A stretch of 32,849 bases of DNA, taken from assembly GCA_020630525.1 (NCBI GenBank), contig JAHDBF010000010.1:1-32849 (forward strand), written 5' to 3'. Positions 1 to 28,933 of the stretch are shown in pieces (the stretch's first letter is position 1; each line of letters starts with the position of its first letter). The notes under the pieces are model-generated. The model ran no database searches. It was not told where the DNA came from and worked only from the letters and a program-made list of their open reading frames with translations. The position numbers and the translations under genes were made by a program. The DNA is from Saprospiraceae bacterium (GTDB taxonomy: Bacteria > Bacteroidota > Bacteroidia > Chitinophagales > Saprospiraceae).

Positions 1-528
1 TGGGGTGAAGAGGATATGGTCATACAATCATATACGCCTGGAGGTTATTACCAAGCTAAAAAATATACCCTAGAGTGGGCAAGCAAAAAATCTATTGAAA
101 AGTATTTGTTTTCTGTTTTCGATGAAGACCTAAATACGATCTATACAGAAGAGGTTGCAACGAATTCAATCAAATTTGATTTCGGCACCTTAGTCTCTGA
201 TAAAGTATATTATTGGCAAATATTTGCATATGAAGAAAGAGCCATAAGCCCACCTGTGACTTTCGAAATTTTATCGTCTGAGGCTATCGAAGAAATTCAT
301 GAACGCTACCAAAGATCCAATATTTATGCAGAAGCTGGTAGTACTGTTCAACGATTAATGCAAACTGTTGCTTACGAAGAAGCAAAATTATATATCGATT
401 GCTACGCTAATTATGAAGACATGCTAAAGCAGGAAAAGAGAAATGACTTTGTTAGAATTAATTATGCAGCATACTGTTTAAGAATGGGACAGAATCTTAA
501 TGCAAAAAAAATAATAGAAAAAATCTAG
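1..528 (+). CDS. C-terminal part of a secreted FecR-like/Fn3-like protein, truncated by the window edge; paralogue of the 7695-8636 product
   Basis: Frame 1 is open from base 1 (tgg ggt gaa gag gat atg = WGEEDM...), so the ATG at 16 is not necessarily the start. The segment 'YTLEWASKKSIEKYLFSVFDEDLNTIYTEEVATNSIKFDFGTLVSDKVYYWQIFAYE' resembles 'FAWTHSCDNCEYIFTINDLASKEIVFSSMTTEKEFSLENPRKYLSENRDYFWSVKLA' of the 313-aa protein, followed by a similar helical tail. Confidence 0.65.
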   Translation, partial: WGEEDMVIQSYTPGGYYQAKKYTLEWASKKSIEKYLFSVFDEDLNTIYTEEVATNSIKFDFGTLVSDKVYYWQIFAYEERAISPPVTFEILSSEAIEEIHERYQRSNIYAEAGSTVQRLMQTVAYEEAKLYIDCYANYEDMLKQEKRNDFVRINYAAYCLRMGQNLNAKKIIEKI

Positions 529-2736
529 TTATTCTTTAAAGTATCTTTGACTAAGCAATATGTATTCTTCTGAAAGGATTAGTTCTTTCATATTAGGATC
601 ATCATTTAATAATTCTAATTGATCGAAACCTGCTTTAAATGCTTCTTGCATATAAGTCAAGCTTCGGCTATTTTCGTTTTTTGACGCATAAATAGATGCC
701 AACAAATAGTAGGCAAATCCGTCTTTAGGAAAATTGTTAACATAGGATAATAATTCTATTTCTGCATTTTCTACATCTCCAGAATAGTAATAATATTCAA
801 TCATTCCTTGATATGCCTCTAGTGCATTAGGTCGATATTTTCGTATGTTTTCAAAATGAAATTTGGATTTTTCTAGCCTATTGGTTGTTAAATAAAGATG
901 CCCAAGATTATTATTTACTAGTACATCAGAAGAGTCAAGAGAGAAGCTCTTATTCCAATACTTTTCACTGGTTATATAATCTTCTTTTTGATACGCCAAA
1001 TAGGCAAATTTGTTTAATACTAATGTAAAGTTACTATCTGACTCATACGCCTTATTTAAATGAACAAGCTGTAAGCTATCGTCTCCGTTATTTTCATAGG
1101 CGTCACTTAAGTTGTAATGAGCAAGCGAATTATTTGCGTCTATTTCAATTGCTTTTTTTCCAATGGCTATTGCCTTTTCAAATTGATTTGTCGTATTGTA
1201 TAAGTCACATAAGTTAGACCAAGCGAGTGTCCATTTAGGCGTTATGGCTAGAGTGGAATTGTAATATTTCTCTGCATTATCATAGTCTTTACAAACGAAT
1301 GATGCATATGCTTTTTCATTAAACGCAAACGCTGCTAAGGAGTCGATCTGTAAACAACTGTCTTGATATGCCATTGATTTTATAATCATCAATGTATCAT
1401 AATTTTGCTCTCCTTTTAATCTTAACTTTAAGCCTTCATAGTAATATGCTCTAGCTTTTAATTCATTATAATAAAAATGATCTTCACCTAATAGCTGCAT
1501 CGCTTTCCTGAGGTATTCTGGATAGTCAGTATATCCATCATCAAACTGCCATCTTCTCATTAACTCTTGCGAGTTGGCTTCTAGATATTTGTTAATGGAT
1601 TGCTGAGCTTCATCTTGTAAAGCTGCGGCTAAATTTCTTTGGTACAACCCAATGTTACTGTCAAACTCTTCGTATTCTTTAAGTTGTTCTAATATGTGCC
1701 AAGCAGATTTATTAGTAGGGTATAATAGGATTTTTTGATTTATCGCTAGATTAAACGCATGTATTAATTTTTGTATAACGGTGTCCTGGTATGCTGAACT
1801 TTCATTGTTCCTTGTTGAAGCAATTATCATATTTGTATTATCATCTAAAGTAGATTTTGGTTCTACTTTTCTATCGGTTAATGCTACTGTCGTTAATCTA
1901 TCCCCAACTGTCATTGGGTTTTGATTGTGTGGTGCAGCAGCGGCAGACACATTATCCTCAAGATATCTTTGAATTTCTTTTAAGTTTATAGTTCCATCAT
2001 CATCTGCATCTGCAAGTCCTTTCAATCCTTTTACCAAATAGTAAGAAAATATGCCTCGACCATTTCCCCATTCTGCACTTTCTAATGCAAATTCATTTGG
2101 TTGACATGACATTATTTTAGCCTCATTAGCGAATTGTTGTGATAGGTATGAAGCGGTAGTTTGTGATCCTTCATTTTCTTCTCCGGCAAGTGCACCTGAT
2201 CTACATGCATCAGTGATGACAGTTACTTTTGTTTCTTTTAGTGCAGATAGAGTAGCAACAATTTCCTTTAAATAGGTAAGCCCAAAAGTGCCACCACTCA
2301 TATAAACTTTATGAGGTGAATCCCAGCATAATAAAAATCCTGGTTGAGAAAGTAGATTACTTTCTACATCTCCATGACCTGAAAAATATATGATCGCTTC
2401 ATCTCCAGGATTTGATTCTTCTATTAGCCAATATAGAGCGGCAATGAAATTTCCTGCTGTTGCATGCTCGTTAGTTAATAATTTTAAATGTTCAGGATTG
2501 GTTATTCCTGATTTACTGCTTAATAAATATTCTGCAAAAATTTCTGCATCTATATGTGCATATTGTAAATCAGGGATTTGATCATTTTGATAATCGCTCA
2601 CTCCTACAACTACTGCTCTCAAAGTTCCAGTTGCTATGCTATCCTTTGCAGATCGTTTTGGTTTTAGCCCTTTGATTTGCGCAGCACAAATGTTGCATAA
2701 CAGTAACAAACTAATTATATAAACAACCCTATTCAT
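529..2736 (-). CDS. Exported caspase-fold (peptidase C14) protein with EF-hand-like loop and C-terminal TPR array
   Basis: Signal peptide MNRVVYIISLLLLCNICAAQ; His motif IIYFSGHGD; Cys motif VTVITDACRSG; EF-hand-like DADDDGTINLKE; repeated TPR-like helices to the C-terminus. Confidence 0.9.
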   Translation of the reverse strand: MNRVVYIISLLLLCNICAAQIKGLKPKRSAKDSIATGTLRAVVVGVSDYQNDQIPDLQYAHIDAEIFAEYLLSSKSGITNPEHLKLLTNEHATAGNFIAALYWLIEESNPGDEAIIYFSGHGDVESNLLSQPGFLLCWDSPHKVYMSGGTFGLTYLKEIVATLSALKETKVTVITDACRSGALAGEENEGSQTTASYLSQQFANEAKIMSCQPNEFALESAEWGNGRGIFSYYLVKGLKGLADADDDGTINLKEIQRYLEDNVSAAAAPHNQNPMTVGDRLTTVALTDRKVEPKSTLDDNTNMIIASTRNNESSAYQDTVIQKLIHAFNLAINQKILLYPTNKSAWHILEQLKEYEEFDSNIGLYQRNLAAALQDEAQQSINKYLEANSQELMRRWQFDDGYTDYPEYLRKAMQLLGEDHFYYNELKARAYYYEGLKLRLKGEQNYDTLMIIKSMAYQDSCLQIDSLAAFAFNEKAYASFVCKDYDNAEKYYNSTLAITPKWTLAWSNLCDLYNTTNQFEKAIAIGKKAIEIDANNSLAHYNLSDAYENNGDDSLQLVHLNKAYESDSNFTLVLNKFAYLAYQKEDYITSEKYWNKSFSLDSSDVLVNNNLGHLYLTTNRLEKSKFHFENIRKYRPNALEAYQGMIEYYYYSGDVENAEIELLSYVNNFPKDGFAYYLLASIYASKNENSRSLTYMQEAFKAGFDQLELLNDDPNMKELILSEEYILLSQRYFKE

Positions 2737-2738
2737 CT

Positions 2739-5700
2739 TTAATCTAATTGTGGTAAAGGAAGTGAATTAAGTATCGACTGGAAAATATGTTCTTCAGAAT
2801 ATTTTTCTAATTGACTGTCGTTTCTGATCACATATGGAAAATTAAACCCGCCATCAATAGCTTTTTGTAAATAGTCCAATGCTTCGGAATTTTGGTTTGT
2901 TATAGCATGTAATCTTGCCAGTGTGTAGTTTAATTCATACTCAGGAATGATCCCTTTCTTTGCTAAATTTTTATACTGTTCTATTGCCAATATTTTTTCA
3001 TCTCCTAAGTAAGAATTTTTGCTTTCTAATAAATATAATTTTGGATCGTCTTCAAAGTTAATTTCTCTTAATGCCAAAATGTTTTCTGTACACTTTGAAT
3101 ACCTTCCAGATTTCATATTATATTCAGCATAAAGGTTTAAGTGATTATACTCCAATTGATTATTTTCTGCCTGTAAGTCTAGTATGGAATGGATAGATTC
3201 AAAATGATAAAATGGCATAGCACTGTTAATGTATTCATCAGCAAAAGAACTATTTTGGGGATTATATTTTAGTGCATTTTCAAAGCAAGAGTAAGCAAGT
3301 TCTGTCTTATTAGATTTATTATATAGTATCCCTTTTCTAAAATTTATTTCTGCAACATAACTACTATCATACTCTTCTATATTTTCTATTGAAACTAGAT
3401 AGCTCAATGCTCTTTCTGGAATGTCAATTATGGGGTATATATAAAAGCTTAATTCTCTTTCAGTGCCAGGAGTAATTGTACTGACATTATGATCTATTTT
3501 TTGATGATTTAAGAATTCTATATCTTTTTCTTTCGATAGATACAGGTTATTATAGTTGTCCCAATTATATAGCAACATTCCAGCAAAATACTTGTATGTA
3601 TTTGCATTTTCTTTGTTCAATATTCTATCATCATAGAATCTCAATAATCTGTTTTTCGACAATGCCAAATCAAAGTTGCTCATACTAATGATGACGTTTT
3701 CCGCTTCTTTATATCGTTTTTGTGATTCCAATATTTCTAATAGTAAAAAGTAGGCAGCTGGTTCATTTAGTTTAATTCGTTGGGTGTAAATATTGATGGA
3801 TTTTTCAAATTTTTTCATTTGGGTATATACATTTGCCAATAGGTATTGAAGGTCTTCCGAAGGAAAATATGCAGCTATATATTTATCATAAACATGACAA
3901 TCTTGATATACTTGTGTTGAAAATAGTGCTTTGGCATCTTGTTCAAATTCATCATAACCTCTATGGTATGTGACGGCTTTTTGGTAGTAATACTCTGATT
4001 CTAGCCATTGACTATTTTGGTAGTAACTGTCTGCAAGATATTTATATGCAATAGGGTTGTCCATATCGTTATTTATGGCTGTTTTAAAATTTCTAATTGC
4101 AGCATGATAATTTCTTTGCTCTAAGTATTTAATGCCTTGTATAAAATATGCGAACACATCTTTTTTGTCAAATAGACTAGAATCCAACTTACAATCATCC
4201 GGAATAGAAACTGTTTCTGAATCTAAAAGATTAATGATCCCATCAGCGTCCTCATCCATTAGGTCAGGTGCCATTAAATTAAATCCCCTCTTTTTTAATT
4301 CTGCTTCATGGAAATTAAAATCTGCTTCTTCATAATTTGTTAATATAGAATATAATTGGCCTAATTCAAAGTAAGGTCTAAAGTGTCTGGAATTTGTTTT
4401 AATTGCTTTTAATAAATTTTCTTCTGCAACTAAATAGTTTTTTTGCATTGCTGCATTTCTTGCAAGTTGTACATAGCCATTATAAAGTTGTGGTCCTAAT
4501 TCGATAGACTTTCTTGAGTATTTTTCTCCTAGTTCAAAATCTCTATTTCTGAAATGTAGCGAGGATAAATTAGAATAAGGTAATGACCAAGTTGGTGCAA
4601 TCTCAATAGCTTTTTCAAAATATTTTTGTGCGTGTGGTTCTTTTTTTATTTTAGAAATTATTCCCATTTCATTTTGAATATATGCAGCTAATGGCTCTAA
4701 TGCAATAGCTTTTGATTGTTCTTGATATGCTATTTTTATAAGCGAGTCTCTATTCTTAAAATGTAAAATTTTAAGCCTTGCATTTAAGCCTTTAAAATAA
4801 TGTAACTTCACTGTCAAAATATGATTCAAGCTACTATTGTCATCTATTAATTCTAGCGCAACCTCTAGCATACTTATATATTCATTATAAATTTCTTTAT
4901 CTTTTGAATAGTATTGTCTCAATTCTAACTCGTCTTCGCTTCCATTTAAATAGGCATTAATGGCGTTTTGTACTTCATCATGTAATTTTGCAGCTAGTGC
5001 ATTTCTAAATGTTTTATAGTTGTCTTTTTTATCTAAATTTGACTTGTCAATTTCCAATTGATTAATGGCATGCTTTACAAGTTTTTCTTTCGATAATTTT
5101 GTCCATTCATTAAAGTTGTATTTTTCTCTTAGATTTGTCTCTCTTATAGATGCTAAGATTTTTCTTTCTTGGGATATGTCGATAGATTTTGAACCTAGAC
5201 TTTCTGAGGATGTATTGGTATTTTTCTCTGGATTTAATTTTAATACTGCTAATTCTTCGCTATCTACTATACTTATTGTTGTGAATTTTTTTCCTTCTAT
5301 GACAGGTACTTGCTCCTCCCGTTTAACCTTAATTACTTCTGCAGGAACATTGTCTTCAAGATATTCTTCTAATTCTATTAATGAAATCAATCCATCTTGT
5401 GTCTCATCATCAGCTAATCCTTTTAATCCATTTATAAGAAACCAAGAAAATACTCCTCTACCTCCGCCCCAGACTTGATCTTCTTGTGACAGCTGATCAG
5501 ATTGACATGAAGCAATCCTTATTTCATTTTTTTGAACTTTAGACAGTTGCGCACCTACTAAAGATTTTCCTCTATTATCAGAGCCAGCCAACTTGCCAGA
5601 GTGGCAAGCATCAGTAATAAGGATAACTTCGACCTCTTTAATAACGGATAGGGTATTAGCCATAATATTTATGTCTTCTATTCTTACCGCATTATTAAGG

Positions 5701-6119
5701 TAATTACCAAAAGGGGTATCATGGGCAATTAGAAATCCAAGTTCGTAAAGACTATTTTCAACATCTCCATGACCTGAAAAATAAAAGTACAATCGATCTC
5801 CTTTTTTTACTTTTTGTTCGATTTTGTCTTTTGCTAAATAGATATTAGCTATTGTTGCATTCTCATTTAATAGTAGCTCAATGTTTTCTGTTGGGACTGA
5901 ACCACCTGATTTGGAGAAAAGATAATTGGCAAATTCCTCTGCATCTTTATGAGCATAATTTAAGTCTCTGATGCGATCATCTTTATATTCTGAAATTCCA
6001 ATGATAATCCCATAAGTTTGCCCTTTAGTTGTTGATTTGGGTTTAAGAGATATTTGGCATTTAGCAATATTGTTGCTAACAAGAAATAGTGCTACAAGTA
6101 ATATATTTACTACTTTCAT
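2739..6119 (-). CDS. Exported caspase-fold (peptidase C14) protein with two Ca-binding-like loops and very long TPR array
   Basis: Signal peptide MKVVNILLVALFLVSNNIAKCQ; LYFYFSGHGD and VILITDACHSG motifs; DETQDGLISLIE and DEDADGIINLLD loops; many TPR-like repeats. Full-length similarity to the downstream 735-aa protein. Confidence 0.9.
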   Translation of the reverse strand: MKVVNILLVALFLVSNNIAKCQISLKPKSTTKGQTYGIIIGISEYKDDRIRDLNYAHKDAEEFANYLFSKSGGSVPTENIELLLNENATIANIYLAKDKIEQKVKKGDRLYFYFSGHGDVENSLYELGFLIAHDTPFGNYLNNAVRIEDINIMANTLSVIKEVEVILITDACHSGKLAGSDNRGKSLVGAQLSKVQKNEIRIASCQSDQLSQEDQVWGGGRGVFSWFLINGLKGLADDETQDGLISLIELEEYLEDNVPAEVIKVKREEQVPVIEGKKFTTISIVDSEELAVLKLNPEKNTNTSSESLGSKSIDISQERKILASIRETNLREKYNFNEWTKLSKEKLVKHAINQLEIDKSNLDKKDNYKTFRNALAAKLHDEVQNAINAYLNGSEDELELRQYYSKDKEIYNEYISMLEVALELIDDNSSLNHILTVKLHYFKGLNARLKILHFKNRDSLIKIAYQEQSKAIALEPLAAYIQNEMGIISKIKKEPHAQKYFEKAIEIAPTWSLPYSNLSSLHFRNRDFELGEKYSRKSIELGPQLYNGYVQLARNAAMQKNYLVAEENLLKAIKTNSRHFRPYFELGQLYSILTNYEEADFNFHEAELKKRGFNLMAPDLMDEDADGIINLLDSETVSIPDDCKLDSSLFDKKDVFAYFIQGIKYLEQRNYHAAIRNFKTAINNDMDNPIAYKYLADSYYQNSQWLESEYYYQKAVTYHRGYDEFEQDAKALFSTQVYQDCHVYDKYIAAYFPSEDLQYLLANVYTQMKKFEKSINIYTQRIKLNEPAAYFLLLEILESQKRYKEAENVIISMSNFDLALSKNRLLRFYDDRILNKENANTYKYFAGMLLYNWDNYNNLYLSKEKDIEFLNHQKIDHNVSTITPGTERELSFYIYPIIDIPERALSYLVSIENIEEYDSSYVAEINFRKGILYNKSNKTELAYSCFENALKYNPQNSSFADEYINSAMPFYHFESIHSILDLQAENNQLEYNHLNLYAEYNMKSGRYSKCTENILALREINFEDDPKLYLLESKNSYLGDEKILAIEQYKNLAKKGIIPEYELNYTLARLHAITNQNSEALDYLQKAIDGGFNFPYVIRNDSQLEKYSEEHIFQSILNSLPLPQLD

Positions 6120-6182
6120 TTTGGAGTTGTTTTAGGAATTAATCTAAATCTCTAACTATAAATCACAAGATTTTACATTAAC

Positions 6183-6220
6183 GTTACCTAAGTTACAAAA
6201 AAAATGCAGAATATGGTAAC
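6183..6220. promoter_or_regulatory. Divergent pair of GGTAAC elements (gttacc 6183-6188, ggtaac 6215-6220), candidate ECF -35 boxes
   Basis: Inverted GGTAAC hexamers between the divergent caspase-TPR and CHASE2 operons; the same hexamer lies at 9844-9849 ahead of the secreted coiled-coil/caspase pair. Confidence 0.35.
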
Positions 6221-6434
6221 ATATTTATAGTTCTGCTTTATTATAGTATTGACTGACTTATTGAGTTGATAGAGTGCAATTGCATTTTTGTAAATTGCAA
6301 AAGAGGATTGTAAATTGTCAATTCTGGATCTATCTCATGGTGTGGCTAAAAGTTAGATTTAATATTTTTAATTACTTCGTTGTATAAGTTGTAAATTAGA
6401 GTATCGTTCATGAAAAAAATAAAAACTAAATCCA

Positions 6435-7682
6435 TTGAAAGGACAAGTTAAACATGCATTTATTTACGCAATATTATCCACCTTATTGCTATTTGTATTG
6501 CATCATCTTCCGATAAATCATATTTTCATTGACCCATTTAGTGAAGCCATTAAGAGTCAAGATGTTACAGATATTTCTATATCAAAGTTGCGTGATCACC
6601 GTAAAGTAAAATTTGATGATAGAATTTTTATCATTAATTCTGAAATAACAGATAGAGCTTTAGTTGCTAAATCTGTCAATCAATTGTTGAAACATGATGT
6701 ATCTGCTATAGGTGTCGATTTGTTATTTGACAGTTTAAATAACAATTACAATGATACCATATTGGCAAATTCGCTAAATAACGAAAAGATAGTTTTAGGT
6801 TACTCTTTTGTAGAGCATAATCATGGGCATGGGCATTCTGAAAATTCGCATATGGAAATTAAAGATAAGAGTGCGGAAATATTTACAAAAGAATGTAAGC
6901 AAGGTTATGTAAATCTTGGAACACAAGATGGATTTACAGTTAGGACTTTTCAACCGGAATATACAGATAAAGGAAAAGTGTATAATTCTTTTTCAAAGCA
7001 ACTTGCTCAGATGAGAGACAAGAAAATCTCTAATATAGTAAATGACCGAAAGAACAAGATAGAGTGGATTAATTTTAGAAGAATGCAACCAGGAGATGTA
7101 AATATGAAATCTCCAATAAACAAGAATGAATTTGTACATTATCAGATGACAACTATGCGCCAGTTTGTTCAAGATTCCAGTTTGTATGCACCAAGTTTTT
7201 TTAAGGACAAAATTGTTTTGATTGGGTTTTGTGGTGAAAACGAAAATGCACTTTCCATGAAAGATAGATATTATACTTCTCTCAATGAACACACTAGCGG
7301 TAGGAGTATTCCAGATATGCATGGTGTAATTGTTCACGCTAATATTATATCAATGTTGCTGGATCGTGATTTTATAGATGAGATTCCAGAAAAAGTATTG
7401 TACTTAATTTCTTTTCTATTACTGTTTGTAAACTATTTTGTTTTTAAAAAAATATTAGCTAAAAAGATTTTGCTAGAATTTTGGGCAGTGCGTTTGGTCC
7501 AAATAATAGAATTTATCTTATTACTCGGTTTATGTTTAGTATTGATGTCTGCATTTAGTATTAAATTGGGTTTTATTCTGATTATTACTGCAGTTATAAT
7601 GTCCTTTGAACTGTTTGAATTCTATGACCATAAATTGGTAAACTATTTAAAAAAGCTTTTTTATAAATCTCCTAATCAGTAA
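6435..7682 (+). CDS. CHASE2-domain membrane sensor protein without recognisable output domain
   Basis: N-terminal TM (FIYAILSTLLLFVLHHL), CHASE2-like core (AIGVDLLFDS..., DKIVLIGF..., RSIPDMHGVIVHANIISMLLDRDFI), then C-terminal TM helices and a short tail. Start is TTG; an in-frame stop (taa, 6420-6422) lies just upstream. Confidence 0.85.
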   Translation: MKGQVKHAFIYAILSTLLLFVLHHLPINHIFIDPFSEAIKSQDVTDISISKLRDHRKVKFDDRIFIINSEITDRALVAKSVNQLLKHDVSAIGVDLLFDSLNNNYNDTILANSLNNEKIVLGYSFVEHNHGHGHSENSHMEIKDKSAEIFTKECKQGYVNLGTQDGFTVRTFQPEYTDKGKVYNSFSKQLAQMRDKKISNIVNDRKNKIEWINFRRMQPGDVNMKSPINKNEFVHYQMTTMRQFVQDSSLYAPSFFKDKIVLIGFCGENENALSMKDRYYTSLNEHTSGRSIPDMHGVIVHANIISMLLDRDFIDEIPEKVLYLISFLLLFVNYFVFKKILAKKILLEFWAVRLVQIIEFILLLGLCLVLMSAFSIKLGFILIITAVIMSFELFEFYDHKLVNYLKKLFYKSPNQ

Positions 7683-7694
7683 AATATTAGACTT

Positions 7695-8636
7695 ATGTTA
7701 TTCAAATCATTTTCAACTTCTATAAAAATTTCTTTCTTGGCATTAGCTATGTTAATGGCTTCCATTGGTCATTCGCAATATTATGTAATTGCAATTAAAG
7801 GAAAAGTATTTTGTATTCAAAAAGAATTAAATGAAGATACTTATGTGCAATTGACATATGGTGCGTTACAAGCTAATGGAAAAATAATATTGAAAGCAGG
7901 TGCCGCTGTCACTCTGTTAAATGAGCAAGATGATATTTGCAAACTTACTGAAGGAGAATACCTCTTAGAGAAACTCACTTTTAATTCTCATGAAAGCAAA
8001 TCTTCTATTTCAAAAATTTACAATTATTTTAAGTCTTTCTTTCTTGAGCATAAAGCAACAGAATCCAAAAATCATTACATGAATAAGGTCTATGCTATTT
8101 CTCGGGGAGAGAAGCAAGCACCTATTCTTGACTTTCCGTTGGACGGAAATATTTCTATGGATTTTAATAAGATTCCATTTGCATGGACACATTCTTGTGA
8201 TAATTGTGAATATATTTTTACAATTAATGATTTAGCGTCAAAAGAAATAGTATTCAGTTCCATGACTACTGAAAAAGAATTTTCTCTAGAAAATCCAAGA
8301 AAATACCTCAGCGAAAATAGAGACTATTTTTGGTCAGTAAAATTGGCTGGATCGGAACATTCCATTGAGTATGATAATAGAATATTTCATACAAGTCCAT
8401 ACGGAGAATTAAAGAAAGTATTAAGTCTTATAGATGATAAAATAAAAGACGTCAAGCTTTTTGAGAATGATGGTTCAGCTTTTATCTATACCTTAAGCAG
8501 CTTGGAATCCCAAGGAATGATAAATGAGGCTATTTTATTTGGTAAGCATACAACTGTCGATAGTATGCGTATAGAAAATGCATTATTAGAGAATTTTATT
8601 TATGATGTCGTAGCAAAAAATAACCTTAGTTTCTAA
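7695..8636 (+). CDS. Secreted FecR-like / Fn3-like (DUF928-reminiscent) protein
   Basis: Signal peptide SFLALAMLMASIGHSQ; FecR-like N-terminal beta segment (GKVFCIQKEL..VQLTYGALQANGKIILKAGAAVTLL); Ig/Fn3-like middle ('PILDFPLDG...FAWTHSCDNCEYIFTI...YFWSVKL'). Follows the CHASE2 gene by 12 bp. Confidence 0.6.
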   Translation: MLFKSFSTSIKISFLALAMLMASIGHSQYYVIAIKGKVFCIQKELNEDTYVQLTYGALQANGKIILKAGAAVTLLNEQDDICKLTEGEYLLEKLTFNSHESKSSISKIYNYFKSFFLEHKATESKNHYMNKVYAISRGEKQAPILDFPLDGNISMDFNKIPFAWTHSCDNCEYIFTINDLASKEIVFSSMTTEKEFSLENPRKYLSENRDYFWSVKLAGSEHSIEYDNRIFHTSPYGELKKVLSLIDDKIKDVKLFENDGSAFIYTLSSLESQGMINEAILFGKHTTVDSMRIENALLENFIYDVVAKNNLSF

Positions 8637-9196
8637 TCAGCTATTTTATTGAGCAATTCTATTGATTTACTAAAGTAGGGTTCTGTCAATAATGTAGATT
8701 TTTGAACAAGCGCAGTTTTATTTTCTCCTTGCCTAAATGAGATTAAAAAGTAAATCCATTCAATTTGATTTTGGAATTGAATGTTGTCAAACTGAATTTC
8801 GTTACTTTTCGCTTGCAATATATTTAGCGAATCTTTTAGGTACAGAATATTATATTTTATAAATAAGTCTTTTGGATTTTTAGAATGATATATTTTTTCT
8901 AAAACTAGATCATATTCTTTGTGAGATAATTCTGCAATGTATTTTTCTACTTTTGCGTTGCTTCTTGATTTTAAAACCTGAGGAAATTCGTATGCCGAAG
9001 CTGCTAATTTTTTTCGTGATGGAGTAGCACTACCATTGCCTAAAATAAACATTCCAACGATAAGTAATATTGATGCTGCAACAGCAATAATCTTTATTAA
9101 AGTAAGTGTAGAATACTTTGGCTTTAGAAGTTTTTTACGCTTGAATTCTTCATTTATTAATATTTTTATTATTTCTTCTTTTCTCTCGTTATTCAT
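8633..9196 (-). CDS. Single-TM anti-sigma-like membrane protein
   Basis: Short basic N-terminus, one TM (IKIIAVAASILLIVGMFILG), helical extracytoplasmic part; start overlaps the sigma factor stop by 4 bp (9193-9196). Confidence 0.65.
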   Translation of the reverse strand: MNNERKEEIIKILINEEFKRKKLLKPKYSTLTLIKIIAVAASILLIVGMFILGNGSATPSRKKLAASAYEFPQVLKSRSNAKVEKYIAELSHKEYDLVLEKIYHSKNPKDLFIKYNILYLKDSLNILQAKSNEIQFDNIQFQNQIEWIYFLISFRQGENKTALVQKSTLLTEPYFSKSIELLNKIAD

Positions 9197-9777
9197 CTTT
9201 CATATGATTTCAATATTTCTTTTAAGTCTGTTTTTGACTCTATATTATGTAATAACTTCTTAAGGCAAATGTGTTTCCTTTTTCTAACTGCAGATTCACT
9301 TGCGATATTTAGTTTTTCTTTTATTTCGCGCATCGAGTATGCATTTGACCATAATTCAAGAATCTGTTTACATGTCTGTCCTAAAAGTGAAAGTTGCATA
9401 GATAGCATTGCTTTTAGTTCTGTATTGTAAATTTCATAATGATGAATTTTTTCTTCGACAAATTCATGATCCTCAATATCATTAAATACATGTTTGCCTT
9501 TTTGTCTAAGAAAGTTTAAAAGAATATAACGGCTTAAGTTAAATAGAAATCCGAGGAGATTATCTTGATGTGTATATTTTCCATTCCTTACTAATGTTGA
9601 AAAACGTATAACGATATCTGTCCATAGTGTATCGGTGTCGGTATTGGAGATGCCTTTAGATTTTAATAGATTTTTTATAGGTGTTTGATACGCTTTAGAC
9701 TCATACAGATGGCTTAAAGCACTATCGTGATCCATAGTGTTTGATTTAAGCTTTTGTATGATTTCTGTTTCGCTCAT
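9193..9777 (-). CDS. ECF-type RNA polymerase sigma factor
   Basis: Size and layout of sigma-70 ECF: region-2-like segment (TDTLWTDIVIRFSTLV...NLLGFLFNLSRYILLNFLRQK) and region-4-like HTH (SLLGQTCKQILELWSNAYSMREIKEKLNIASESAVRKRKHICLKKLL). Confidence 0.85.
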   Translation of the reverse strand: MSETEIIQKLKSNTMDHDSALSHLYESKAYQTPIKNLLKSKGISNTDTDTLWTDIVIRFSTLVRNGKYTHQDNLLGFLFNLSRYILLNFLRQKGKHVFNDIEDHEFVEEKIHHYEIYNTELKAMLSMQLSLLGQTCKQILELWSNAYSMREIKEKLNIASESAVRKRKHICLKKLLHNIESKTDLKEILKSYER

Positions 9778-9910
9778 GCTTGGTAAGCAAATTAAGAAGA
9801 ATCTCTCTGAAATTCATATTCTTTCAAAAAAATTAAAAATTCAGGTAACATTTTGATAAATTGAGGTTATCACTTATTGAATTTAATTGCACATTCCTAA
9901 ACTTCTGACT

Positions 9911-11437
9911 TTGAAAAATCTAATTATCAAATATTTTGCACTTTCTATTTTAGTATTAAATTCTTGGTCATTTTCTGCCCAAGAAATTAATGGCTTGCTT
10001 GTGGTTTATAATTTGTTTGACAACACTATAACATACCTTCAAAATGGTCATCAAATAGATAAACCCGAGGTGAATAGCGGCGATAATATCTACGTTCAGA
10101 TCGAAGAGTTCAACCCTTATATTAACAAGGCAAGATTGGAAGTCACACAATTGAATTATAGCCAATCGTCTATGCAACTAAATACCAATGACGATATAAC
10201 AAGCGGTGGATTTCAAGGTGTTTCACAGTTGTTAGGTGGTCTTTCAATGGGGTCAGATTTACAAGGTGGATTGTTCTCATTTGGTTCTGCTAGAGGAAAT
10301 CAATCTAAAGAAGCAATTACTATTAAGTCTAAATATTTTGATTTGACTGCAGAATTACAAGATGTTGAATCTCGAATAAATGATGCACAAGAAAAGGTGA
10401 ATCTAATACAAAAGCAATCACAGGCTCAAGCCTTAGCAATTGCAGATATTGAATCATTAAAAAGCAATAAACTTATAAGACCAACACGGATTAGAGATTT
10501 GATGGAAGAGGAAATAAGATTTGCATTTGCAAAATCTAAAGAAGAAAAAATTACTATAGATGATTTGATGAATGAGGAGTCTGGAACTGAAAGAGTGAAG
10601 TCTGCATTGGACGAATATTCAACAGCAGTAGGAGCGTATAAATTGTTGCAAAAACAATGGAAGAAGCTAAGCCTTAATCCGACACTTTTAGCCACAGAGG
10701 ATAGCCAATTAAAACGTATGCAAATGTCTGCGGACTCTGTAAGTAAAATTATGGCATTAAAAATTGAAAACCAAAATGAGAATGATGTTGATGATTATGA
10801 AAATAGTTATCAAGATATAAATAGTTTAAGGTTGTTAAGGCAGACTTATGAAGAAATTCAAAATGATATATTTACTTATAAATTTCCACCTTTACAAGCT
10901 AAAGAAGATCAAGTAGTCATAAATTTAATTGTAAGTCAATTGGATGAGGATGGAAGTTATACCACTTTTAAAACAGTAGAACAGATTATTCCAATAACTG
11001 GTGATTGGAAAATCTCTGGTGGAGTGGGATTAGCATTTAGTAAGATGATAGAGCAACCATATTCTTATGATGTCGTAGATGGATTAATTACAAGTGAGCC
11101 GCTTGATGATTTTATCCCAATGTTTAGCTCGTTTGTGCACGCATACCGTTTGACTTCAAAGACAGTTTCATATGGTCTTTCTTTTGGGGTAGGATTCCCC
11201 CTTCAGTCTTTAGATGACAGTTTTTCTCTTTCATATTTTTTAGGTCCTACATTGATAATTGGTAAAAGTGAAAAAGTATTGTTGACAGGAGGATTAATGG
11301 GCAGTAAAGTATCACGATTATCGGGTGGATATATGGTCGGTGATAGTTATCCAGTATTGGCATCAACACTTCCACAGCGTAACAGATACGAGTTGGGTTA
11401 TTTCCTTTCATTTTCATATGCGGTATTAAAAAATTAA
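9911..11437 (+). CDS. Secreted coiled-coil protein with possible outer-membrane/beta-strand C-terminus, unknown function
   Basis: The ORF track starts at TTG 9887. A TTG at 9911 gives a cleaner signal peptide, (M)KNLIIKYFALSILVLNSWSFSAQ. Central helical coiled coil (LTAELQDVESRINDAQEKVNLIQKQ); C-terminus of alternating hydrophobic/aromatic strands ending LGYFLSFSYAVLKN. Confidence 0.6.
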   Translation: MKNLIIKYFALSILVLNSWSFSAQEINGLLVVYNLFDNTITYLQNGHQIDKPEVNSGDNIYVQIEEFNPYINKARLEVTQLNYSQSSMQLNTNDDITSGGFQGVSQLLGGLSMGSDLQGGLFSFGSARGNQSKEAITIKSKYFDLTAELQDVESRINDAQEKVNLIQKQSQAQALAIADIESLKSNKLIRPTRIRDLMEEEIRFAFAKSKEEKITIDDLMNEESGTERVKSALDEYSTAVGAYKLLQKQWKKLSLNPTLLATEDSQLKRMQMSADSVSKIMALKIENQNENDVDDYENSYQDINSLRLLRQTYEEIQNDIFTYKFPPLQAKEDQVVINLIVSQLDEDGSYTTFKTVEQIIPITGDWKISGGVGLAFSKMIEQPYSYDVVDGLITSEPLDDFIPMFSSFVHAYRLTSKTVSYGLSFGVGFPLQSLDDSFSLSYFLGPTLIIGKSEKVLLTGGLMGSKVSRLSGGYMVGDSYPVLASTLPQRNRYELGYFLSFSYAVLKN

Positions 11438-11447
11438 AATTATTATT

Positions 11448-13400
11448 ATGAAATTTCCATATTTCTACGCCCTCATTTCATTAATAGTATCCCTTTTTTT
11501 TGCTTCAGAAATAAAGGCGGAAAAGTACGCTTTGATAATTGCAATAGGAGATTATCCTGACGCTGGAGGTTGGTCAGATATTTCCAGTGCAAATGATGTT
11601 CCACATGTTAAAAATGCACTGCTATGTCTTGGATTTGAAAATGAAAATATTGTTGTTGTTCGAGATGCAGCAGCAACAAAGGAACAAATTTTATTTCAAT
11701 TTAGTCAACTTAAAAATAGAGTATCTCAAGGTGATATTATTTACATTCATTATTCTGGACATGGACAGCAAGTAGTGGATGATAATAATGATGAGTTGGA
11801 CTTATTAGATGAAGCAATCGTACCATTTGATTCTCCCTTAAAGTATGAATCAGGAATTAATGAGGGACAATTCTTGATACGTGATGATGAGTTGGGTGCA
11901 TTGACATATGAGCTTAGAAAAGTAATTGGTCAGGAAGGACAACTAATATTGGTGTTGGATTCTTGTCATTCTGGGACTGGAACTAGAGGACTTGGAAAAG
12001 TTAGAGGTACCGATAAATTAATGGCTCCAAAGGATTTTGTTTCAATAGGTTCAACAGAAAAATCAATGCAGATTAGTATGGAGTCTGCTCAGAATTTAGC
12101 TTCAATAGCAAGTTTTTTTGGTTCTAGTGCTAAAGAATTAAACTATGAAACTATTGATGAACAAAAGAATACAGTTGGAAGTTTGAGTTATGCTATTTCT
12201 TCCGTACTTGCAAATATGAATGAGGCATTTACTTTTGAGGAACTATTTGATCTAGTTAAATTAAAAATGAAAAAGATTGCACCAATGCAACACCCTCAAT
12301 GGGAAGGACCAAAAAATACTTTAGTATTTGGACAAAAAGCATTTGAAAATAATGAGTTTTTCGCGATTGCAAATATCATTGATGAAATGAATGTAGAAAT
12401 GTCAGGTGGAACATTGAGTGGTGTATATGTTGGGTCAAAAATAGATGTTTTTAATAAGAAAGATAATACGATTTTAGTTTCTGGTGAAGTGATTTCTGCA
12501 AGGCTTACAAATGCAATGGTACAATTGGAAAATGAAGTTATATTTTCTGAAAATACACCTTATGGAATAAAGATTTCATCATACGCTTATCCAAATTTGA
12601 AAATTAACTTAGCTGTTTCCTTAAGTGAAATAGAAAAATGGAATCCTCTTTATGAGCAAATAATCTCTATTCCTAATATTGAAATTTGTGAGGAAAATGC
12701 TGACTTCTATATGTTGGATGCTGATGATAATGCAGTAATACTGAGTACAAAAAATGGTCAGATATTGTCAAAAATGTATAATGAGGATTTAGGATCAAAT
12801 GAAAAGTTGTTGAGTTTTAAAAAATCTCTATTGAGTTATATGCAAGCCAATTTTCTTAGATCATACAATAATTTAAACCCAAGAATTAATTGTGATATTG
12901 AGATTTTAAATATTGATCCAGATAGCGAAGAAGTGGTAAGTACTTTTGATCCTTTGAAAGATGTAATGAAACCTGGTGACTGTATAAAATTTAAAATCAC
13001 CAACAATGGAATTAATGGTGCGTATGTGTCTTTATTGGATATTCAACCAGATAATTATATCAACCTAATTATACCTCCTACAGAACTAGGATACACTGCC
13101 GAAGAATATTATGTAAAACCTGGAGAATCTATCACTTCTCATTTTATCATCGAAATTGCAGAACCATTTGGTGAGGAAACACTGTTACTCTTGGCATCAA
13201 GAGAACCTCAAGATTTATCAGGGATAATATCGACAGGTGGACAGACAAAACGTGGTTTTAGTGAGTTGGATTCTTTTCAACAGTTGCTCTTAAGTAGTTA
13301 TGGGAATGTTCAGCAAAGAGGTACTAAGATACGTCAGTCTAAAAGAGAAATTATATCCACCAAAACACTCTTTTTCGATATAGTCAATAAATCAAATTAG
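11448..13400 (+). CDS. Exported metacaspase-like peptidase C14 with DUF4384-like C-terminal domain
   Basis: Signal peptide; YALIIAIGDYPDAGGW; IIYIHYSGHGQQV; DELDLLDEAIVPFDS; LILVLDSCHSGTGTRG; C-terminal 'MKPGDCIKFKITNNGINGAYVSLLDIQPDNYINLIIP' is DUF4384-like. Confidence 0.88.
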   Translation: MKFPYFYALISLIVSLFFASEIKAEKYALIIAIGDYPDAGGWSDISSANDVPHVKNALLCLGFENENIVVVRDAAATKEQILFQFSQLKNRVSQGDIIYIHYSGHGQQVVDDNNDELDLLDEAIVPFDSPLKYESGINEGQFLIRDDELGALTYELRKVIGQEGQLILVLDSCHSGTGTRGLGKVRGTDKLMAPKDFVSIGSTEKSMQISMESAQNLASIASFFGSSAKELNYETIDEQKNTVGSLSYAISSVLANMNEAFTFEELFDLVKLKMKKIAPMQHPQWEGPKNTLVFGQKAFENNEFFAIANIIDEMNVEMSGGTLSGVYVGSKIDVFNKKDNTILVSGEVISARLTNAMVQLENEVIFSENTPYGIKISSYAYPNLKINLAVSLSEIEKWNPLYEQIISIPNIEICEENADFYMLDADDNAVILSTKNGQILSKMYNEDLGSNEKLLSFKKSLLSYMQANFLRSYNNLNPRINCDIEILNIDPDSEEVVSTFDPLKDVMKPGDCIKFKITNNGINGAYVSLLDIQPDNYINLIIPPTELGYTAEEYYVKPGESITSHFIIEIAEPFGEETLLLLASREPQDLSGIISTGGQTKRGFSELDSFQQLLLSSYGNVQQRGTKIRQSKREIISTKTLFFDIVNKSN

Positions 13401-22849: not shown

Positions 22850-24319
22850 TTATTTGACTATAATCTTTTGCGTAGATACTTTTTTTCCCTGAGTTATCCT
22901 CAACATGTACATGCCTGAACTAAAATCAGCTTTACTAAGTCTATAGTTATTTCCAGTGATTTTATTGGTACTTAACAAGCTTCCATCTGGGGCATACAGT
23001 TTTATTTCTGTTTCTAAATTTGTTGGATTGTCAAATTTAATATTGGCGTATTCACCCATTGGGTTAGGGGAGACAACAACATTTTTTATTGTATAATCAT
23101 CTTTTGTACTTGAACTTAAGTCAAAAGGATCAGACCATATTTCATTTGTTAGAAATGATTCATCTGTTAGCGTTTTCATGAATTCGATTAAGGCATCTTT
23201 TTCTTCTTCAGAAAAGCCAAAACCTCCAGGAGGAATAAATCCAAAATCCCATTCTCCAGGTTCAGGATCAGTACTATAAAAATCAATTACCTCTTCTAGC
23301 GTTTCAAATCTGCCATCATGCATGTAAGGTCCAGTAAGTGCAATATTTCTAAGCGTAGGTACTTTAAACAAATGATTAAAATTGTCACTCCATTCTCCTG
23401 CTCCCAAATCATCATCAGTAGCTGGCAGCCCATTATTAAACATAAAAGGGAAGAATTCTAATATGTCCATATTTGCAAATTCTTCTATCATCACAGAATC
23501 TACCTCAACATCAGGGCCACCAATGAAAAACCCAAAAGGATCTGGTTTTCCCTCAACATGACAAGAGGCACAGTTAACTGAGAATAGCTCTAATCCTAAT
23601 AGTTCCTTCTCATTAAAATCAATAAATTCTGCATTCGCTTGTTCGTCAAAACGACTGTTGAATGTAACCATTGAGCCAATAAAATTTTCCAATGCAATGA
23701 TTATCCTTTCTTCATTTATATTACTGTCTCCAAAAGCATTCGTAAATAATTCTGGGTAATACTCTGTGTCATTTAGCTTAAAGACAACGTCATCCATGTT
23801 TGCACCTATTTCATTTTCATCAAGTAGCGGTAAACGTATCATTTTCTTGAGATCGGTTTCTCTAAGATCCCAAAGAAAGTGAGAATTATTGGTCCAACCC
23901 AAATCATTTAAATGCATGGAATTACGTTTAGTAAGTGCTTGTACACCTTCAGAAAGTGGTTTGTTTTCAGCGAATGATTCAGATTGATTATGACATGAGC
24001 CACAAGAAATATCTTCCATTGCAGACAGCTTTTTGTCGTAAAACAATACTCGGCCTAGCGTCGCAATATCATTGTCTATAAATTCAAAGGCATTGGTATT
24101 TATAAAACCACGTTCGTAGCCTACAGGATCGGGATCAGGTCTAGTAAGGTGATCGGGAAACGTTATTTCAGTATAGTCAAAGGGACTATCAGGCAAATTA
24201 GGGCTTTCATTAAGGATGGTAAAAATAAAATTACTTGTATTACTAACATCTTTAATAGTGAAGTTTGAAAGCAAAAATACTAATGTAATTAGGATTGTGG
24301 GAAGTATAAATTTTTTCAT
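22850..24319 (-). CDS. Di-haem cytochrome c peroxidase-like protein with T9SS type A sorting domain
   Basis: Two CxxCH motifs (CGSCH, CASCH), 'ATLGRVLFYDKKLSAMEDISCGSCH', 'KVPTLRNIALTGPYMHDGRFETLEEVIDFY'; C-terminal VVVSPNPMGEYANIKF...SGMYMLRITQGKKVSTQKIIVK. Confidence 0.92.
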   Translation of the reverse strand: MKKFILPTILITLVFLLSNFTIKDVSNTSNFIFTILNESPNLPDSPFDYTEITFPDHLTRPDPDPVGYERGFINTNAFEFIDNDIATLGRVLFYDKKLSAMEDISCGSCHNQSESFAENKPLSEGVQALTKRNSMHLNDLGWTNNSHFLWDLRETDLKKMIRLPLLDENEIGANMDDVVFKLNDTEYYPELFTNAFGDSNINEERIIIALENFIGSMVTFNSRFDEQANAEFIDFNEKELLGLELFSVNCASCHVEGKPDPFGFFIGGPDVEVDSVMIEEFANMDILEFFPFMFNNGLPATDDDLGAGEWSDNFNHLFKVPTLRNIALTGPYMHDGRFETLEEVIDFYSTDPEPGEWDFGFIPPGGFGFSEEEKDALIEFMKTLTDESFLTNEIWSDPFDLSSSTKDDYTIKNVVVSPNPMGEYANIKFDNPTNLETEIKLYAPDGSLLSTNKITGNNYRLSKADFSSGMYMLRITQGKKVSTQKIIVK

Positions 24320-25127: not shown

Positions 25128-26522
25128 TTAAAATTCTAAAATCTTAAGCACACTATTTGAGCTTAAGTAAGTATTAATGATCTGATTATATTGCTTATCA
25201 AATGCAACATAATCTATAGCTTCTTTCAGTTCCTCCACACCGAGAAAACTATCTTCATCAGAAATAAATCCAAAACCCTTATAGTTTCCTTCTTCTACTA
25301 AGACGACAGATTTTTCACCAGGCGAACGACCAGCATCAATTATGAAAAAATTAGATTTTACTACCTCTTCATCGAGAGATAACGCCTCTATGATACGCTC
25401 ATTATATGAGATGTGATCCTCTAATCCAATACACGCGCCTGCACACTTCTCCAATGTATGGTCAAAACATGGTCCAGAGCCATAACCTTTCTCAAGCTTA
25501 TTGATTTTTTTACATAAACCAAAATTAGATGTGATGGCATCGACACTAGATTTAGCATGGTGTAGGCTGCTTATCTGCTTTATTATTTGATAGTCTTTTT
25601 CTATTTTTTTAGAGATTTTTCCACTCAGTATAGAAAGATATCCATCTGGATTTTCTTTGACGTATACGCAGTAAGGGTAGTCTGTGTTTTTTAGTGCAAT
25701 GTTTATTTCTGGTTTGTTTTCTTTAATCTCTTTTGCTTCTTTTAGCAATGCAATTAATTCGCTACCGGTTAATTCATAATGTATCTTGCGGACACGTTGC
25801 ATCATCTTTCCAGATTTAGAATTCACCTTAGAAAAATGTTGCTTTATTCTTTTTTGGATGTTTATACTTTTTCCGATATATACGAGTTGTTTGTCTGCGT
25901 CAGACATGTAATACACACCACAAAGCGTTGGTAAGTTGTGTATTAATGCTTTATCGATTCCTTCTGGAAGTTTAGAATAATCTATGGCTATTCTTACAAA
26001 TTTATCAGTCGCATTTTCAGGACTTGTTTCTATTATTTTATGAAAGATGATTGTCGTTGCTAAAGTATCATCTAATGCTCTGTGTCTGTTGTTGACTTGT
26101 ATGTTAAAATGTTTTATCAAGTTACCTAAGGCATAAGATTTGAGTCCTGGAAAAGTCTTTCTACTCATTTTAACGGTACACAGTCTACGTTTGCTAAAGC
26201 TATATCCCAATGAGGCAAATGCATTTTGGATAAATCCATAATCAAAACTAACATTGTGTGCAACGAAGATTGTGTCTTCTGTCATTTCGACAATCTTTTT
26301 TGCTACTTCATGAAACCTTGGTGCATCAGCAACCATGTCATCTGTTATGCCAGTAATCCGAGTAATGTGATAAGGTATGCTTATGCCTGGATTAATTAAT
26401 GTGTCATATTGGTCCAAGATTTTTTTTCCATCAGAAATTACAATGGCTATTTCAGTGATCCGATCACGTTTAGCAACACCACCAGTAGTTTCTATGTCAA
26501 TAATGGCATATTTTTTTGCCAT
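25128..26522 (-). CDS. DEDDh exonuclease (DnaQ/PolC-type) fused to UvrC/Cho-like GIY-YIG nuclease
   Basis: YAIIDIETTGG, IFVAHNVSFDYGF, HRALDDTLAT (DEDDh); GVYYMSDADKQLVYIGKS (GIY-YIG); UvrC-like Cys cluster CFDHTLEKCAGAC. Confidence 0.92.
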   Translation of the reverse strand: MAKKYAIIDIETTGGVAKRDRITEIAIVISDGKKILDQYDTLINPGISIPYHITRITGITDDMVADAPRFHEVAKKIVEMTEDTIFVAHNVSFDYGFIQNAFASLGYSFSKRRLCTVKMSRKTFPGLKSYALGNLIKHFNIQVNNRHRALDDTLATTIIFHKIIETSPENATDKFVRIAIDYSKLPEGIDKALIHNLPTLCGVYYMSDADKQLVYIGKSINIQKRIKQHFSKVNSKSGKMMQRVRKIHYELTGSELIALLKEAKEIKENKPEINIALKNTDYPYCVYVKENPDGYLSILSGKISKKIEKDYQIIKQISSLHHAKSSVDAITSNFGLCKKINKLEKGYGSGPCFDHTLEKCAGACIGLEDHISYNERIIEALSLDEEVVKSNFFIIDAGRSPGEKSVVLVEEGNYKGFGFISDEDSFLGVEELKEAIDYVAFDKQYNQIINTYLSSNSVLKILEF

Positions 26523-26523
26523 T

Positions 26524-28260
26524 TTAAGACAAGTGTTTTTCGAGAGTTGTTTTTACTTCTTTTAGTTCTTTGTCAATACGCGCATATTCATTATCTAAGT
26601 ATTGGATAGTTTGATCTTCTTCTTTAAGTAGCTTATCAAAGTTGAAAAAATTGTCATCGATTCTGGCTTTAATCTTTGACGTATATCCAGTCAGTTTCTC
26701 TAGAACATCTCTCTCGATTTTCTTCCTACCTTTTGCGATTGCTTCTTTAAATCCACCAACAATTTTATTTCGTTTCAAGCCGATGGTGACACCTGCAAAG
26801 GTTAAACCTATAGTTGTTAAGATACCTCCCGTAATATCGAATACCATACCGTTAGTAACTGCTGCTAATATCACTCCGACAATGGCAATTCCTCCACCTG
26901 CAGCCATATTCGGTGCAAGGTTATTGCTTTCACTTAATAATCGCTCATCATAAAAATTTTCAGATTTAGACAAGAACCCCGAAAATGTTTTTTGTAAATC
27001 CCTCAGTACATTTGCGCGCCTTTCTGCAATGTCAGCAAAGATTTCATGATCGTCTCGCAAGATTGTTTGGCTGTTTTTAATTTTTGCATCAACGATTTTT
27101 CCCATATCTTGAATGCTCTCCGCGATGTCAATGACACCATTGTTTAGCTTCTCTCTTAGTGCGTTGTTTAAGTTAGATTCTAAGTCTTTTGATAATCCAT
27201 CTAGCCATTGTTTTGCATTTTGATTTCCACCTACCATTGAACTAAAAGACCGTTTAATTAAGGAGAAAAACCCTAAACCTTCTTTTATCTCCATTTCTTT
27301 TTCTGTAGTGATTTTATCATAAGTAGTTAATAGGCTTTCTACTAATGTATCTATCTGTCTCACTGTTCTTACTTCTTGTTCATTCAGTGTTTTTTTTATG
27401 TCTTCACGGAACATAACATCAGCTTCGTATTGCTTTTTTCTGACAATGACTCCACTGTAGATTTTTTCATTGATATTTAATGCGGTAGATGCATTGTTGT
27501 TTAGTTTGAGATAAGGTGCTTTTCCTCCTGTGATATTATTGAGGATGTATCCTCGCACATCTTTAAATCCACTTATTTCTTTTTTGTCCTCCAATTCTTG
27601 TTTAGCGGATACTGCAAATACGTTAGGATTGGAGATGCCTTTTTTGATGGCTTGTTCTTTTACTCCGTTAATGTTTACGATAAGATCATCAGGCTCCATC
27701 AAGTCTTTTTGTTGCAATACAAAAATGATTTTCTTATGCCATTCTTCATTTATAAAATTAAAAAATTCCCAAGACGATTGTCGATACGGATTCTTTGCTT
27801 CAAAAACAAAAACAATCAAATCTGATGAAGGGATAAATTTTTCAGTGATCTCTTGATGATGGTCTATTATGGTATTTGTTCCCGGCGTATCGACAATGGC
27901 AATTTCTTTTAAAATCTCTATCGGTTCTTCGATACGTTTTAAGTAGGGATTAATTTCTGTGATCTGATGTTTTTCTCCATATACAATCTGTTGTATAGTA
28001 TCTGTCATTGGAGAAGGCGCCACTTTGCAAATCTCTTCTTTGCTGTCTAATAAGGCATTAATAAAACTGCTTTTTCCAGCTTTTACTTCCCCGACGATTA
28101 CAAACATATACGGGTCACGTATCCTATCTTTAACATCACCAACAGTTATACTCAGTTCCTCATGTCCAATTTTTTTTGTAATCTGTAGTAATGAGTCAAC
28201 AGTGTCTTCTAATTTTAAATTATATGATTCTACTTCTTTGGATACAATGTATTCTGACAT
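26524..28260 (-). CDS. Dynamin-like large GTPase with hydrophobic C-terminal segment
   Basis: P-loop GEVKAGKSSF, DTPGTNT, LQQKDLM; Gly-rich hydrophobic segment MAAGGGIAIVGVILAAVTNG...GILTTIGLTFAGVTIGL. Start moved from 28275 to the internal ATG (28258-28260), leaving a 1-bp gap to the upstream gene. Confidence 0.85.
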   Translation of the reverse strand: MSEYIVSKEVESYNLKLEDTVDSLLQITKKIGHEELSITVGDVKDRIRDPYMFVIVGEVKAGKSSFINALLDSKEEICKVAPSPMTDTIQQIVYGEKHQITEINPYLKRIEEPIEILKEIAIVDTPGTNTIIDHHQEITEKFIPSSDLIVFVFEAKNPYRQSSWEFFNFINEEWHKKIIFVLQQKDLMEPDDLIVNINGVKEQAIKKGISNPNVFAVSAKQELEDKKEISGFKDVRGYILNNITGGKAPYLKLNNNASTALNINEKIYSGVIVRKKQYEADVMFREDIKKTLNEQEVRTVRQIDTLVESLLTTYDKITTEKEMEIKEGLGFFSLIKRSFSSMVGGNQNAKQWLDGLSKDLESNLNNALREKLNNGVIDIAESIQDMGKIVDAKIKNSQTILRDDHEIFADIAERRANVLRDLQKTFSGFLSKSENFYDERLLSESNNLAPNMAAGGGIAIVGVILAAVTNGMVFDITGGILTTIGLTFAGVTIGLKRNKIVGGFKEAIAKGRKKIERDVLEKLTGYTSKIKARIDDNFFNFDKLLKEEDQTIQYLDNEYARIDKELKEVKTTLEKHLS

Positions 28261-28261
28261 T

Positions 28262-28933
28262 TTATTCTTTTTCAATCATCAAATTATTACTTGCTAAAAT
28301 TTGAAGCATAATATGATTTATAGTTAATATTGCTTCGGGTCCAGCACAAAAAATTAAGTCTAATATACTTAAACCCTTTATAAATCCTATAGTTCCAAAT
28401 GGCACCTGATTATAAGTGTAATTGGTTTTATCCCAATCTTTCTGAAACCTTAAATCTATTACTTCTTTTGGATATTCCATTATCCATGATTCACTTACGT
28501 TGAATGTACATTCACATTTTAAGAATCCTAATATTTTTAAATGCAATTCTCTATTCAAATCCCATAAATGTACATGTCTTTTTTCTACAACAGCAAAAAT
28601 TTGATTTACATAAAACTCATAATAAGGGGCGGATTGATAGCAGGTCATTACAGTTTGCTTAAAGTTACTTACCCAATCCTCATCATAAGCGATTTTTACC
28701 GATCGAATGTTGAGCTTTTCATGTTTTCCTTTTTGCAACGGTATCGAAAAACCCAATATTCCATTTGAAGAACGAAAATTACACCGATTCCTAATTGATC
28801 TTTTTTGATAATTTTCATTTGCTTCCCAAACAACTTCACCTAGAAAGTAATAGGCGTACAATTCAATGCTACCCAAAAAGTGCGTAGCTGTAATAAATTG
28901 AATATTTTGTGCAGATAAAGCAGATTGTGTCAT
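28262..28933 (-). CDS. WbqC-like family protein
   Basis: 'THFLGSIELYAYYFLGEVVWEANENYQKRSIRNRCNFRSSNGILGFSIPLQKGKH' and 'YDEDWVSNFKQTVMTCYQSAPYYEFY' resemble WbqC-like proteins. Track start 28978 overlaps the divergent gene; ATG at 28931-28933 preferred. Confidence 0.75.
   Translation of the reverse strand: MTQSALSAQNIQFITATHFLGSIELYAYYFLGEVVWEANENYQKRSIRNRCNFRSSNGILGFSIPLQKGKHEKLNIRSVKIAYDEDWVSNFKQTVMTCYQSAPYYEFYVNQIFAVVEKRHVHLWDLNRELHLKILGFLKCECTFNVSESWIMEYPKEVIDLRFQKDWDKTNYTYNQVPFGTIGFIKGLSILDLIFCAGPEAILTINHIMLQILASNNLMIEKE

Follow-up and report, generated by a model that had tools for sequence, protein, structure and literature searches.

A conserved gene cassette of Bacteroidota that places caspase-domain proteins with predicted export signals beside a CHASE2 membrane sensor

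Caspase-domain (peptidase C14) proteins with export signals are encoded in Saprospiraceae and other lineages within a gene set that travels together and also includes a CHASE2 membrane protein, a secreted partner of it (FN), a coiled-coil protein with a predicted outer-membrane beta-barrel (CC) and, in the lineage studied here, an ECF-type sigma factor, suggesting that some bacteria may use caspases in the cell envelope rather than to kill themselves from within. The set was first seen in a contig of a Saprospiraceae bacterium (JAHDBF010000010.1, assembly GCA_020630525.1), the whole of which, 32,849 nucleotides, is referred to here as the window. A first-pass annotation of its first 13,400 positions described three exported caspases with intact His/Cys motifs, a CHASE2 protein, two secreted FecR-like/Fn3-like proteins, an ECF sigma/anti-sigma pair and a secreted coiled-coil protein. 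That observation is confirmed, apart from the FecR assignment and the truncation of one gene. Its interpretation, an envelope-sensed module in which CHASE2, the FecR-like proteins and the anti-sigma control caspase expression or activity outside the cytoplasm, is only partly supported.

Gene content of the window

The window is one complete contig of a 220-contig, 3.46 Mb genome, so that the first gene (FN1) is cut by the contig start. A search of the genome recovered only this piece of FN1 and nothing of the remainder beyond the contig edge. Genome-wide CHASE2 and C14 searches hit only this contig, although the C14 search missed the middle caspase, which Pfam finds, and is therefore not exhaustive. 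From position 13,770 onwards SbcD/SbcC-like genes, named from their sequence, and then other genes follow.

Table 1. Features of the window, with positions, strand and description.
Positions	Strand	Feature	Description
1-528	+	FN1	3' part of a second FN-family (Fn3-like plus helical repeat) protein, cut by the contig start
529-2736	-	C14a	Exported caspase-domain protein with TPR repeats; SGHG / DACRSG
2739-6119	-	C14b	Exported caspase-domain protein with long TPR array; SGHG / DACHSG; probable operon with C14a
6120-6434		Divergent promoter region	One GGTAAC facing each way (towards C14b and CHASE2)
6435-7682	+	CHASE2	Membrane protein, 4 predicted TM segments, no cytoplasmic output domain; TTG start
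7695-8636	+	FN	Secreted protein; N-terminal beta domain, helices, Fn3-like domain, C-terminal TPR-like helices; no Pfam family
8633-9196	-	Anti-sigma-like protein	One TM segment (33-51); overlaps the sigma gene
9193-9777	-	Sigma factor	ECF-type; TIGR02985 E 1.5e-8
9778-9886		Divergent promoter region	TGATAAC-N17-TTACC towards sigma, GGTAAC towards the coiled-coil gene
9887-11437	+	CC	Secreted beta domain, coiled coil and predicted C-terminal outer-membrane beta-barrel; TTG start
11448-13400	+	C14c	Exported caspase-domain protein with DUF4384; SGHG / DSCHSG
22850-24319		Di-haem cytochrome c peroxidase	Type IX secretion sorting tail
25128-28275		Dynamin-like GTPase gene and exonuclease-GIY-YIG gene	Directly beside each other on the same strand

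The three caspase-domain proteins match PF00656 with E-values of 7e-14, 1.6e-14 and 1.2e-16 (52.5-61.6 bits against a cut-off of 21.4), with the SGHG motif near residues 103-121 and one N-terminal hydrophobic segment in each. No solved relative of the caspase domain was found by sequence. Exported C14 proteins are not without precedent, since a 2012 survey noted 46 with a single N-terminal helix that may be a signal peptide (PMC3501461). The CHASE2 protein matches PF05226 with an E-value of 6e-22 (78.9 bits against a cut-off of 26.3), with predicted TM segments at residues 9-27, 324-342, 354-372 and 373-391. The FecR assignment is not supported, as the window FN has no PF04773 match at E 0.1 and six relatives have none at E 1; DUF928 and other Pfam families were likewise rejected for FN, for which no convincing match beyond weak TPR hits was obtained.

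The sigma factor is weak in Pfam (r4 E 0.099) but clear in NCBIfam, although its TIGR02985 match lies below the curated cut-off of that model; the homologue in L102 (locus numbers preceded by L denote loci used for comparison) passes the TIGR02937 cut-off. The anti-sigma-like gene overlaps the sigma gene by 4 bp and its product shows no family match in Pfam or NCBIfam.

Conservation of the neighbourhood

The absence of a conserved neighbourhood in related genomes had been named beforehand as a refuting condition; the neighbourhood is conserved. Of 395 genomes drawn from the class, 41 carry CHASE2. In the 35 loci fetched from these plus the window, an FN-family gene is present in 28 of 36 and lies beside CHASE2 in most, whereas C14 is present in five of 36. 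The 40 other CHASE2 genomes contain 76 C14 hits in 127 Mb, so that 0.44 genomes with C14 within 10 kb of CHASE2 are expected, whereas four were observed (P about 8e-4). A second sample of named genomes, picked by likeness to CHASE2, gave 80 loci; together with the window, FN is present in 75, C14 in 33, CC in 23 and the sigma factor in 12 of 81 loci. This second sample is biased towards the lineage of the window, while the first is not, and near-identical loci (L100 and L103) inflate some counts. Named strains carrying the caspase-CHASE2-FN version are Neolewinella aquimaris, N. maritima and N. litorea. A search for plasmid-borne copies gave one distant Bernardetia hit.

A gene of about 545 residues, which could not be seen from the window alone, recurs in 31 of these loci. 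Its product has an export signal, TPR repeats and an HExxH motif in 38 of 40 full-length copies, followed in 26 by an ExxAD segment; since the Pfam M48 match is weak (E 0.004-0.02), it is described here as M48-like. No M48-like gene was found in the genome of the window. In L102, a Saprospiraceae contig, ten cassette genes lie on one strand with gaps of -8 to 93 bp, in the order C14, CC, sigma, a 267-residue anti-sigma-like protein, M48-like, CHASE2, FN, M48-like, FN1 and C14. Ignavibacteria have CHASE2, FN, a papain-like C1 peptidase (E 4e-13), a 165-residue protein and an exported C14 close together on one strand (L123:9971-17481, with an S9 peptidase inserted, L173:10001-15519 and L174), the C1 peptidase and a C14 with an Ig-like domain standing in place of the M48-like gene.

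Lewinella-type loci (L125:5472-9119, L128 and L163) carry two caspases side by side with altered motifs. An apparent loss of catalytic motifs in these copies was considered and rejected, as they carry THGD instead of GHGD and SSC instead of DAC. In 13 mostly Cytophagales-type loci (L111, L113, L114, L126 and nine more) a divergent gene of about 331 residues, to which no identity could be given, precedes CHASE2. A contig labelled Bradyrhizobiaceae (L177) carries a CHASE2-FN pair whose CHASE2 groups with an Ignavibacteria sequence and is probably mis-binned.

On a quick CHASE2 tree of 109 rows the window groups with Saprospiraceae loci that all have C14, and most of the larger Saprospiria group has C14 too. 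C14 is also linked in Ignavibacteria, Kapaibacteria, a Bacteroidales pair and a Chitinophagaceae pair, and well supported branches force at least 12 changes, although the tree has long branches and open forks and exact counts are loose. These data bear on the possibility that CHASE2-FN is an independent housekeeping sensor pair beside which caspase genes merely settle. CHASE2-FN often stands alone amid housekeeping genes, most class-level CHASE2-FN loci have no C14, and caspases are thus not obligatory. However, linkage about nine times above chance in other genomes, its recurrence on separate branches and the same-strand runs in L102, L125 and L173 make this explanation unlikely.

Predicted anatomy of the proteins

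CHASE2 proteins of this family have the sensor between N-terminal and C-terminal TM segments, with only 24 residues after the last segment in the window protein and a median of 30 in relatives, leaving no cytoplasmic kinase or cyclase. The FN model (mean pLDDT 88) has matches that include many Fn3 proteins and the C-terminal domain of MtxA. The CC model (mean pLDDT 75, pTM 0.55) ends in about ten strands of barrel type, and its PDB matches include small outer-membrane barrels, but none reaches E 0.001 and domain placement within the model is uncertain.

Export-like N-termini are present in 36 of 40 C14 proteins tested, and all three in the window carry export signals. These assignments rest on a lenient hydrophobicity rule that about half of the unlabelled neighbours also pass. 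The exported proteins could alternatively be digestive or predatory enzymes, a regulated secreted protease set for feeding on proteins or prey with CHASE2-FN as nutrient sensor. Several peptidase classes occur together (C14, M48-like, C1 papain and S9), and Saprospiraceae include predatory and particle-degrading bacteria. However, the TPR arrays and DUF4384 suggest binding partners rather than digestion, no type IX sorting tail was found on the window C14 proteins and only a few copies of each are present, so that this reading is considered improbable.

A relationship to EACC-type caspase conflict systems, in which caspases would act on the cell itself as an immune or programmed-death module, is similarly doubtful. 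Caspase, CHASE2, ECF sigma and TPR proteins recur in EACC2 neighbourhoods (PMC8195603), and the NCBIfam model caspase_w_EACC1 matches at E 1e-18, though far below its cut-off. In contrast, no EACC, TRADD-N, NACHT or STAND domain was found by Pfam in the window set, the proteins carry export signals and CHASE2 is a separate gene instead of a fusion. A PADLOC search for anti-phage defence systems gave a convincing match only to the generic caspase model.

Promoter-like sites

In seven other sigma-carrying loci the next gene encodes an anti-sigma-like protein of about 190-290 residues, six of which have one predicted TM segment. A count of all 6-mers upstream of cassette genes in sigma-carrying loci placed GATAAC and GGTAAC first. 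G[AG]TAAC occurs upstream of 22 of 90 cassette genes and seven of 105 others (Fisher p 5e-4), and it precedes all four operons of the window, whereas 3000 shuffles never exceeded three. The extended form TGATAAC-N16-18-TAC has nine intergenic hits, all in five sigma-carrying loci, two of which are near copies, and a different second box, GGTAAC-N16-AAATA, appears in other loci. The motif was found after looking and is not proof, but together with the one-strand arrangement in L102 it provides circumstantial support for shared control by the sigma factor.

Interpretation

The most likely reading, held with moderate confidence, is an envelope-located sensing-and-proteolysis cassette. In this view, CHASE2 sits in the inner membrane with its sensor domain in the periplasm and pairs with secreted FN to detect an unknown envelope signal. 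Because this CHASE2 has no kinase or cyclase in the cytoplasm, the signal would most likely be passed sideways in the periplasm to the exported proteins of the cassette: caspases, in most Saprospiraceae relatives an M48-like metallopeptidase, and a coiled-coil protein anchored in the outer membrane. In the lineage of the window, an ECF sigma factor held by a single-TM anti-sigma protein would transcribe the cassette from G[AG]TAAC promoters and amplify it. The sequences themselves establish the gene content, its conservation, the predicted topology and the promoter-like motif, whereas the signal flow, the activation and proteolytic activity of the proteases, any control of the caspases by CHASE2 or the anti-sigma, and the binding and release of sigma are inferred. 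Thus, of the first-pass interpretation, the conserved neighbourhood, the export signals and, circumstantially, sigma control are supported, while the FecR-like identity is not, the sigma pair is confined to a minority of loci and no regulatory step is shown; the metallopeptidase and the predicted barrel are additions to it.

A more speculative and unlikely possibility is a periplasmic caspase cascade, in which exported caspases and a metallopeptidase activated by the CHASE2-FN sensor would cut the anti-sigma factor or envelope targets, so that caspase proteolysis itself would carry a signal from the envelope to transcription. Bacterial caspases are mostly discussed as cytoplasmic agents of cell death or phage defence, and a conserved cassette that exports them beside a membrane sensor, a metallopeptidase, an outer-membrane protein and sometimes its own sigma factor would point to a second use, regulated proteolysis in the envelope. 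It also gives CHASE2 proteins without output domains a testable partner in FN.

Comparison with known systems

Literature searches for a caspase-CHASE2 envelope module found only the works cited here, and the combination of exported caspases, a metallopeptidase and a predicted outer-membrane barrel around a CHASE2 without output was not found in the papers searched, which exclude most subscription journals. CHASE2 beside a secreted partner is already known. The Burkholderia BiofilmReg operon (PMC5192318) pairs a LysM-FecR protein with a CHASE2 histidine kinase, but CHASE2 there carries a kinase and has a response regulator, and there is no caspase, metallopeptidase, barrel or ECF sigma. In Magnetospirillum, mtxA is followed by a CHASE2-adenylate cyclase gene (PMC4439547); the C-terminal structure of MtxA (4z29) is among the best folds for FN (E 3.9e-5), although the match is partial (TM 0.31/0.50), CHASE2 there has a cyclase and no peptidases are present.

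The EACC2-caspase systems with ECF sigma and DUF1822 (Kaur et al., 2021; PMC8195603) have a caspase domain, CHASE2, ECF sigma and a TPR protein as neighbours or fusions, but with a constant EACC2 domain and CHASE2 as a fusion partner, and no exported metallopeptidase or outer-membrane barrel was found in the parts of that account examined. The caspase-CHASE2 fusion of Trichodesmium (PMC3501461) likewise couples a caspase to CHASE2, but in one protein, with the caspase predicted in the cytoplasm.
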